A DNA stretch of 64,000 bases, taken from Alkaliflexus imshenetskii DSM 15055. GTDB lineage: Bacteria; Bacteroidota; Bacteroidia; Bacteroidales; Marinilabiliaceae. Made by a program: the position numbers and the translations under genes. The stretch spans positions 3,065,684 through 3,129,683 of the forward strand of contig NZ_KI912105.1 of assembly GCF_000517065.1 (NCBI RefSeq), read 5' to 3'. Positions 9,818 through 17,420 of this stretch are shown piece after piece. Below the pieces are notes generated by a model that ran no database searches, was not told the origin of the DNA, and worked only from the letters and a program-made list of their open reading frames with translations. Numbering within the stretch: position 1 is the stretch's first letter; each line of letters opens with the position of its first letter.

Positions 9818-10006
9818 CAAACCAATAATCCTCAACATTCAACTCTAAACCTAAAACTAAACCTAAAACATAAAACCAACCCACACCCCCTAACTCCACC
9901 GGAGGCGGACACAGCCCTGACTAAAGGGGGAACCCATAACGCTCAAAACCCTCAACTCAAAACCCTCAACCCTAAATATAAAACATAAAACCTAAAATCT
10001 AAAAAA
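9818..10006 (+). repeat. G-poor spacer repeat between nifE and nifN
   Basis: Most of this stretch consists of degenerate units such as CCTAAAACTAAA, CTCAACTCAAAACC and CATAAAACCTAAAA, nearly free of G on the sense strand. In its middle lies a different palindromic piece, with CCCCCT (9886-9891) facing AGGGGG (9925-9930) around a small CTCC/GGAG stem. The repeat runs up to the nifN start codon. Confidence 0.7.
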
Positions 10007-11380: not shown

Positions 11381-11534
11381 TGAGTTAGTGAGCTAATGAA
11401 CTAATGAGTTCAATAGTTTAACAACTCAACAGCTCATCACCTCAACTACTATAAAATGTACAGCTAATGAGCTAACGAGTTCAACAGTTCATCAACTTAA
11501 CAGTTCATCAACTCATCAACTAAAAAACACCGCC
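11381..11534 (+). repeat. G-poor spacer repeat between nifN and nifB
   Basis: Built from TGAGTTAGTGAGCTAATGAA-like units and then from repeated CAACAGTTCATCAACT words; the 15-base word AACAGTTCATCAACT occurs twice here and again at the end of the nifB-fdx spacer. Short self-complementary pieces such as GAACTAATGAGTTC are present. It ends with AAAAAACACCGCC before the nifB ATG. Confidence 0.7.
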
Positions 11535-12806: not shown

Positions 12807-12995
12807 AAACAGATAACAGTGTTCAGTCATTAGTTGGGAAGTTTTGAGTTGATGGTTGGAAGGTAAGTAGGTTCCAAGTTCAGATGGCATAGTACTCAAA
12901 ACCCCAAACAATCAACCCCAAACAATCAACTATAAACTATAGAACAACCTCAACAACTCATCAACTCAACAGTTCATCAACTAAACTAAGCAATC
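12807..12995 (+). repeat. G-poor spacer repeat between nifB and the ferredoxin gene
   Basis: The first third is ordinary sequence; from about 12896 the spacer is made of CCCCAAACAATCAA units followed by CTCATCAACTCAACAG and the word AACAGTTCATCAACT that is shared with the nifN-nifB spacer. It ends directly before the ferredoxin ATG. Confidence 0.65.
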
Positions 12996-16164: not shown

Positions 16165-16229
16165 TCATCCGATGACTAATGCAAAAATATCCATAAGTCA
16201 TCGGATGACTTAAAACTCATTGGATGACC
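16163..16229. repeat. Three short palindromes between modA and the two-Mop-domain gene
   Basis: AGTCATCCGATGACT (16163-16177) and AGTCATCGGATGACT (16196-16210) are each near-palindromes and are exact reverse complements of each other over 15 bases; a third, weaker copy ACTCATTGGATGACC lies at 16215-16229. As RNA, copies one and two can form a 15-bp hairpin with an 18-base loop. As DNA they look like three operator half-site pairs. The first overlaps the modA stop. Confidence 0.8.
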
Positions 16230-16245
16230 TAAAAACGACTAAATC

Positions 16246-16737
16246 ATGAATATAATCCCGGCTATAATCCAAACCATCACCACCTCGGGTGGCGTTGTTC
16301 TGGTCGATTTGCACAGTGGCGACTGTCCATTGTCGGCTCTTCTTGTCGATGCCGATAAATTGCCCGCATGGCTCACGACTGGCCAGCAAGTGTTAGCCGT
16401 TTTTAAAGAGTCTGAACTCTCAATTGCGGTTGACCTATCTGGAAAAATAAGTCTTCGCAACCGTTTCCCATGCATTGTTAGGTCTATTAACCGTGGCGAA
16501 TTACTTAGTTTGGTCGAACTTTCATTTGGTGAGCATATTATACATTCTGCCATCACAACCCGCTCAGTAAATGCACTCGAACTAACAACCGGAACACAAG
16601 TCCTGGCTCTTATCAAAGCCAACGAAATATCCCTAATACAACTATCAACCCAAAACTATCAACCCAAAACTATCAACAATAAACTATCAACTATCAACTC
16701 TCAACTTCAAACTATAAACCCTCAACTCAAAACTTAA
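16246..16737 (+). CDS. Two-Mop-domain molybdate-binding protein with repeat-derived C-terminal tail
   Basis: A 163-residue protein with two Mop/TOBE domains in tandem (about residues 1-65 and 70-130: 'IIQTITTSGGVVLVDLHSG...LSALLVDADKLPAWLTTGQQVLAVFKESELSIA', then 'SIVRSINRGELLSLVELSFG...ALELTTGTQVLALIKANEISLIQ'). Such di-Mop proteins store or buffer molybdate. The second domain appears complete at about residue 131, yet the frame runs on for about 30 more residues, 'LSTQNYQPKTINNKLSTINS' and onward, encoded entirely by an ACTATCAACCCAAA-type repeat, before stopping two bases ahead of modB. It lies between modA and modB in the same operon. Confidence 0.82.
   Translation: MNIIPAIIQTITTSGGVVLVDLHSGDCPLSALLVDADKLPAWLTTGQQVLAVFKESELSIAVDLSGKISLRNRFPCIVRSINRGELLSLVELSFGEHIIHSAITTRSVNALELTTGTQVLALIKANEISLIQLSTQNYQPKTINNKLSTINSQLQTINPQLKT
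16635..16737 (+). repeat. G-poor repeat translated as the tail of the two-Mop protein
   Basis: About 100 bases of degenerate tandem units (ACTATCAACCCAAA, AACAATAAACTATC, CAACTCTCAACTTC), almost without G on the sense strand. It is of the same kind as the spacers between nifE, nifN, nifB and the ferredoxin gene, but here it lies inside a coding frame and contributes its last codons and stop. Confidence 0.75.
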
Positions 16738-16739
16738 AC

Positions 16740-17420
16740 ATGCCAAGCCCATTCATCCAAACCCTCATCCTCACCGGAAAGCTGGCAATTTACACCACCT
16801 CAATTTTGCTTGTAATCGGATTGCCGCTCAGTTATTTCATGGCCTACGCCCGGTTTCGGTTCAAACCTGTGCTCGAAGCTTTGGTGAGTATGCCGCTCGT
16901 TTTGCCGCCTTCGGTAATTGGGTACTACATTTTGGTAGCATACAGTCCCAATTTTTGGTTCGGAAAACTTTTAAGTGAATGGTTCGATGTGCAACTGGCT
17001 TTTACGTTTGAGGGAATTCTTTTGGCTTCAGTGGTGTTTAGCATCCCTTTTATGGTGCAGCCGCTCACGAATGGGTTAAGGGCTGTTCCGGTTAATCTGC
17101 GCGAAGCTTCCTACACCTTGGGGAAATCAAAAACTACTACTTTTTTCCGGGTGTTAATTCCAAATATAAAGCCATCATTAATCACAGCCATAGCGCTCAC
17201 TTTTGCCCATTGTATTGGCGAGTTTGGAATCATTCTCATGGTGGGGGGCAACATGCCGGGCGAAACCCGTGTGGCTTCAATTGCTATTTACGATGAGGTT
17301 CAGGCGCTTAATTTCGATGCTGCCAACCAGTATGCACTCACGTTGTTTCTTACTTCGTTTGTCATACTTACCCTAATTTATACTGTCAACAGAAAAAGCG
17401 ATGCATGGAAAATGATATAA
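16740..17420 (+). CDS. modB: Molybdate ABC transporter permease ModB
   Basis: A 226-residue inner-membrane permease with five or six hydrophobic segments. 'PLVLPPSVIGYYIL' and the EAA loop 'NLREASYTLGKSKTTTFFRVLIPNIKPSLITAI', followed by 'AHCIGEFGIILMVGGNMPGET', are diagnostic for the ModB/CysT group, the last phrase being the ModB hallmark. It starts 2 bases after the two-Mop gene and its last 16 bases overlap modC, so expression is tightly coupled. Length is typical. Confidence 0.95.
   Translation: MPSPFIQTLILTGKLAIYTTSILLVIGLPLSYFMAYARFRFKPVLEALVSMPLVLPPSVIGYYILVAYSPNFWFGKLLSEWFDVQLAFTFEGILLASVVFSIPFMVQPLTNGLRAVPVNLREASYTLGKSKTTTFFRVLIPNIKPSLITAIALTFAHCIGEFGIILMVGGNMPGETRVASIAIYDEVQALNFDAANQYALTLFLTSFVILTLIYTVNRKSDAWKMI

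Follow-up and report, generated by a model that had tools for sequence, protein, structure and literature searches.

Tandem heptanucleotide arrays, their placement beside genes and their overlap with stop codons are already known in bacteria (PMC4679880; PMC4692102). TAACTGA heptamers occur in Beggiatoaceae, Cyanobacteria and some Bacteroidetes, where most sets stand immediately ahead of a start codon; the stop codon of an upstream gene is overlapped by 13 of them, and some repeats fall within ORFs or near C-termini (MacGregor, 2015; PMC4679880). In its forward orientation this unit carries stops in all frames, and the overlap with coding ends is at most 18 nt (PMC4679880). GGGNATC heptamers of Xanthomonas and Nostoc present their G-rich strand past stop codons and their C-rich strand before start codons; some form inverted pairs, some overlap stops, and G-quadruplexes are formed in vitro (Rehm, 2015; PMC4692102). 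The parts of these two papers available to us give no established mechanism for the origin of bacterial heptamer arrays. The STRR heptanucleotide repeats of filamentous cyanobacteria have 7-bp units and form hairpins between cistrons, e.g., hupS-hupL, with a suggested role in transcript stability or translation coupling (PMC2670836).

The array considered here lies between a two-Mop gene and modB in a 64,000-nucleotide stretch of the genome of Alkaliflexus imshenetskii DSM 15055 (hereafter the window; its coordinates are used throughout, and all its features are on the forward strand). Consistent with Bacteroidota, 24 SusC-type hits exceed the cut-off, which one of 14 control genomes also passes. 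As with TAACTGA, tandem heptamers stand directly upstream of a start codon, point towards it and run over an upstream stop. However, the unit is of ACTATCA type and not TAACTGA, it is free of stops, the whole array is read, and the units change between species at this one site, features that set it apart from what is set out in the available parts of PMC4679880. Arrays of TCAGTTA/TAACTGA are also found in the related genome G024. GGGNATC differs again: a quadruplex in that system takes four tracts of at least three G on one strand, whereas CCC occurs as a tract just three times in the window array (16641-16738), and the arrays found here draw on several unrelated units. STRR repeats belong to another phylum and have other units, and protein tails are not reported from them in the accessible part of the paper on hupS-hupL. 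Vioque (1997), cited in PMC2858038, is reportedly a reference on STRR repeats. Rickettsia palindromic elements, of about 100-150 bp, are repeats read in frame as protein segments; they are likewise read as protein but, unlike the tandem heptamers of the window, are palindromic.

The two-Mop gene and its tail

The gene (16246-16737) encodes a protein of 163 residues of molybdate-binding type, identified from its ORF, its domain matches and a comparison of its halves. These are homologous repeats (19/59 identical residues, E 2e-8 in one comparison), as in ModG-type di-Mop proteins, although the first half matches neither PF03459 nor TIGR00638. Di-Mop proteins of the 1h9j type go by the name ModG. 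The neighboring genes are modE-like, modA-like, modB and modC-like, and molybdate binding is predicted from this context alone. In the spacer between the modA-like and two-Mop genes (16165-16245) a palindromic motif resembling TCATCGGATGA occurs three times (TRF period 19) and may be an operator.

The initial annotation judged the second Mop domain complete near residue 131, and the profile limits and solved structures bear this out. The domain (residues 68-131; 16447-16638) is bounded at residues 67-132 by TIGR00638 and 69-129 by PF03459, and in Mop proteins of known structure the chain ends with the domain, the match running to residue 140 of 145 for the second domain of 1h9j and to 66 of 67 for 1fr3. 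The ModG-type 1h9j protein resembles that of the window in having two Mop domains in tandem, but its chain stops five residues past the second-domain match without a repeat tail, whereas the window protein is predicted to carry one.

Most of residues 132-163, together with the leader of modB, is made up of 14 contiguous heptamers (16641-16738) found by TRF and a lag-7 test: five of ACTATCA, two of ACCCAAA and one each of ACAATAA, ACTCTCA, ACTTCAA, ACTATAA, ACCCTCA, ACTCAAA and ACTTAAA. All 14 units start with AC and there is no indel; besides the five ACTATCA units, two more are one base away from it, and the ACTATCAACCCAAA quoted in the initial annotation is the first two units. TRF returned periods of 7, 14 and 28. 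As in STRR and other long simple sequence repeats, the 7-bp tandem units exceed chance: lag-7 identity is 0.64, compared with a mean of 0.36 over 5000 dinucleotide shuffles, none of which was as high; these shuffles are the test relied on for this array. A backward-read pattern control fell short of the pattern by no great margin in this genome (32 vs. 18, and 4 vs. 2); it is not a clean control because AACTATC reversed gives one of its own rotations.

Beyond the domain the frame runs on for 32 codons. It closes at a TAA (16735-16737) supplied by the last variant unit, ACTTAAA, two bases before the ATG of modB, the molybdate ABC transporter permease gene (16740-17420; TIGR02141); one base separates the array from this ATG. 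The earlier description of a run of about 30 residues through a G-poor repeat, rich in Thr, Asn, Gln, Ser and Leu and stopping two bases ahead of modB, holds, the array being read in frame as [S/K/Q]-T-I-N-x-Q-L-like heptads.

Why is such a frame open? Since 7 and 3 have no common factor, a uniform heptamer array encodes one repeating heptapeptide in all three frames, and ACTATCA carries no stop. In 428 windows of 90 nt drawn from ten C-rich arrays of at least 90 nt, outside the listed coding cases, 185 were open on the C-rich strand vs. 4 on the other. The window array itself remained open in 1030/5000 dinucleotide shuffles and 1800/5000 shuffles of unit order, and in comparable cases openness as such has an expected frequency of 21-43%. 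The open frame was considered as a sign of selection and, given these shuffles, rejected: the C-rich strand of such arrays is poor in stops, so openness is no argument for selection.

Gene ends and junction arrays in relatives

A profile of the domain was run against 393 genomes from the order and 71 from the family, with any match in 39 and 11, respectively. Partial and ModC-type matches were left aside and 20 full-length genes used, one (G327) from column 6, with relatives compared at one genome per species. Tails, counted past the match end at column 130 (“NEISL”; column 129 in G397), comprise 33 residues in the present genome (G000), 31 in G014, 50 in G024, 8 in G006, 2 in G008 and 17 in G072, and 4, 6, 11, 4, 4, 2, 2, 5, 3, 2, 5, 4, 7, and 3 in the other fourteen genes. 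The alignment proposed in the initial annotation for locating the usual gene end places the stop 2-11 residues past the second Mop domain in 16 of the 20. The three longest tails (31, 33, and 50 residues) are all encoded by heptamer arrays, one of them with another unit, and in G006, one of the 16 short-tailed genes, the stop lies within a heptamer array. A conserved, non-repeat tail, named at the outset as the contrary outcome, was not found among the 20 relatives. Two-Mop proteins do not generally carry a tail, and where a long one occurs it is encoded by an array.

Periodicity was also scored in the 110 bases past the domain. Period 7 was reached by none of 500 shuffles in G000, G014, G024, G006 and G397. 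Period 8 was found in G106 (0/500) and G133 (3/500), and weakly in G446 (12/500). Periodicity was doubtful in G072 (18/500) and G192 (25/500), and in the other ten relatives at least 39 of 500 shuffles matched the period score. The 17-residue tail of G072 has a weak period (18/500 over lags 5-12, 3/500 at lag 7 alone). G397, G106, G133 and G446, which belong to other families, have junction arrays yet tails of just 4-11 residues; an array at the junction need not make the protein longer. Inverted octamer arrays are seen past the two-Mop stop in other families at loci L123 and L124 (AGTAGATG.../CTACTCGT...; ACGCTAAG.../CTTTGCGT...).

In G008, which has no array, the stop overlaps the modB start by four bases (offset -4); by reading of the sequence G413 has the same overlap, if modB begins at MIDWQPL. 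Junction units are ACTATCA in G000 and G014, GGAAAGC in G024 and GGTGAAC in G006, where they carry the stop. G000 and G014 share ACTATCA/ACCCTCA units and similar array ends before modB, and their arrays are probably, from the sequences, one ancestral array. The G024 array is read as KQTESGKRKAENGKRK..., an unrelated Lys/Arg tail, and is followed by an ACCATCA-type array before modB. The border is thus a recurrent site in the family for arrays whose unit differs between species.

Short repeats are prone to assembly errors, and on that general ground the array could be an artefact of assembly or sequencing. This is extremely unlikely: separate genomes have arrays with different units at the same junction, the window array is imperfect, and its flanks align with those of relatives.

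Tail, leader and a probable covered stop

The two-Mop tail is very likely the product of a heptamer tandem array, the leader array of modB, that occupies the two-Mop-modB junction and covers an old stop. The original suggestion that a spacer repeat lies over the stop codon is largely supported in that the three long tails are all arrays, with the direction of change taken from the relatives. An older stop, near modB or overlapping it, would have been overrun by the array, an order of events read from the same comparison, and the ribosome would then read [S/K/Q]-T-I-N-x-Q-L-like heptads until a variant unit puts TAA in frame. Growth, shrinkage and replacement of units would alter both length and sequence of the tail between species, the array probably changing by slippage or by recombination or exchange between arrays. 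The tail itself is probably flexible and tolerated, appended to a domain that is already complete.

Could the tail instead be functional, its Thr/Asn/Gln/Leu heptads having acquired a role in binding, in oligomer contacts or in regulating molybdate storage, and being maintained by selection? The same kind of heptads persists in two genera (33 and 31 residues), and the tails have a lower density of TAA (2 in 96 nt and 1 in 90 nt, 3 in 186 nt together) than 46 non-coding C-rich arrays (5.1 per 100 nt), a deficit that involves small numbers, is partly a product of the open frame itself and is drawn from arrays that vary in composition. The G024 tail, however, is wholly different and basic, that of G006 is 8 residues long, and in 16 of 20 genes the tail is 2-11 residues long, which makes a selected function quite improbable. 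The tails of G000 and G014 are alike since their arrays are alike, and the tail may be weakly conserved in that pair.

With the tail as a tolerated extension, the same RNA would serve modB as an unstructured, G-free leader. The leader has an MFE of 0 kcal/mol and no G in the 50 bases before the start. A further reading takes selection to act solely on this RNA, with Bacteroidota ribosomes starting modB without a Shine-Dalgarno (SD) sequence and the tail a pure by-product. C-rich arrays also precede starts at other borders, and SD pairing is described as rarely used by Bacteroidia in the available parts of PMC8710568 and PMC9976891. Ribosomes of Flavobacterium johnsoniae depend little on such pairing (PMC8710568), so a G-free leader need be no handicap. 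Against this, at most one G is present in just 6/228 sampled leaders, a sample that includes the window and five stretches picked for arrays, so such leaders are not generally needed; the G-rich arms found past stops are also left unexplained. Selection on the RNA alone is possible, though we lean against it, and it is compatible with, and not exclusive of, an array over the stop. The window tail array is a C-rich arm alone, and its stop, two bases from the modB start, suggests that translation of the two genes is coupled.

A Mop-protein tail formed by a heptamer array is not described among the matches listed in a partial literature search. As far as the literature was searched, the features that appear new are a unit without stops, so that the whole array is predicted to be translated into a tail; the exchange of one unit, and with it the tail, for another from species to species at orthologous positions; and the in-frame heptad loops of Wzy_C paralogues (see below). 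The natural series of no tail, short tail and two kinds of long tail offers a picture of the way in which non-coding tandem repeats may turn into protein. It is also a warning that gene ends beside such arrays may vary without functional meaning.

Arrays at nif borders and inside Wzy_C genes

The initial annotation considered the repeat to be of the same kind as those of the nif spacers. This is correct in general but not in detail, period 7 holding for the nifE-nifN spacer (9818-10006; TRF, lag scan), whose arrays are C-rich before the nifN start. The nifN-nifB spacer (11381-11534) has period-8 arrays in two inverted arms, with an RNA fold z of -4.26 (11381-11530 folded). The spacer between nifB and a ferredoxin-like gene (12807-12995) has a G-rich arm past the stop and a C-rich arm before the start (z -2.72, 12837-12986 folded) and is weakly periodic, lag 8 scoring slightly above lag 7. 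Five borders (two-Mop-modB, nifE-nifN, nifN-nifB, nifB-fdx and nifI1-nifI2) were compared at lags 5-10, without shuffles, over the mod-nif region of four genomes. Of the 20 border-by-genome slots 16 were located, with a best lag of 7 in 14 and 8 in 2, one of these two being the weakly periodic nifB-fdx border of G000; at the four nif borders the units mostly differ from species to species. In the G014 nifN-nifB spacer (L118:9054-9092) there are four TTTAGGG units, CCCTAAA on the coding strand. TTTAGGG is identical to the plant-type telomere repeat.

Fold z values for seven spacer pieces are -4.26, -2.72, -2.32, -0.02, -1.48, -2.96, and -2.10, some of the pieces being part of a spacer (the nifI1-nifI2 piece, z -0.02, is 138 of 226 nt). 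The evidence for inverted arms as strong hairpins is mixed, two-armed spacers folding better than shuffles in most, not all, pieces. The nifI1-nifI2 spacer (L054:11524-11740 and the matching L118) has a core, GGATGCAGT.ATTGGCTTTTACCGA, conserved between G000 and G014, with flanking heptamer arms that differ.

Of 50 scored arrays, 43 follow one rule, read on a single strand: G-rich if at the left edge of the spacer and C-rich if at the right, whatever the gene direction, the layout also reported for GGGNATC in the available part of PMC4692102. The sample was 61 arrays from four genomes, most loci picked by array pattern and the arrays clustered and not independent; scoring passed over 6 arrays in ORFs, 4 ambiguous ones and 1 remote from any gene, and the crude longest-ORF method used to call genes produced some false antisense genes (L111, probably L054). 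Among the seven misfits, four are C-rich and resemble the window array in running over the gene before them and stopping 1-32 bases short of the next start. The arrays are dispersed and mostly intergenic, 6/61 lying in ORFs, two of these in a spurious antisense call. In sequence not picked for them they are rare: 300 kb of G000 yielded one and 400 kb of G024 five, and a looser threshold gave two for 300 kb of G000 vs. one for a single shuffle, so the claim of a wider system rests mostly on pattern-chosen loci. The pattern AACYMTC x3 is found in 10 of 71 family genomes and a GGAAAGC-type pattern in 1 of 71. In G024, nifE likewise enters an array for a few residues (KFTKLKTT*; L204).

A second case lies inside genes. 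G024 has four paralogues of a Wzy_C (O-antigen-ligase-like) membrane protein with loops of 103, 114, 117, and 185 residues, measured between and including the anchors FNEPLKLW and SYPFDISSF and filled with LSTINPQ-like heptads. Loops of similar flavor occur in two G006 paralogues (136 and 161) and one G004 protein (137), and eight sequences (G072, G014, four of G036, G000 and G008) have 66-82 residues, giving a range of 66-185 over the 15 aligned sequences. This alignment left out G019 (L188) and G001 (L189), both lost at the ORF filter, and L191-L195. Lag-7 DNA segments were detected in three G024 loops; the remaining one and the G004 loop fell below threshold and, like those of G006, were called by peptide likeness. 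Because the conserved C-terminal part continues in frame, the G024 arrays are very probably translated, and translation in the middle of a gene is hard to avoid.

Stop-free heptamer arrays might then be, within the family, a reusable supply of new coding sequence, repeatedly written at the same borders with changing units, oriented inwards from the spacer edges (G-rich first, C-rich last, in any gene direction) and read as heptad peptides at gene ends and in a membrane-protein loop. This broader proposal is speculative and on balance unlikely. If true, a fixed position with a changing unit would point to active writing of arrays, e.g., by repeat addition at break ends before joining, and not to slippage of a single ancestral array. 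Borders that are orthologous but differ in unit would open the origin of heptamer arrays to testing.

Two of the G024 Wzy_C paralogues end in TCAGTTA-encoded tails of unlike length, ...SVINEQ and ...SVINEQLSVISEQ, and one G024 copy (C55:130425-132563) has a single TGA inside the match. Among the Wzy_C/TPR paralogues on contig C55 (L107:3957-4129, L108:4166-4203 and L196), one copy carries a 114-bp duplication of the array.
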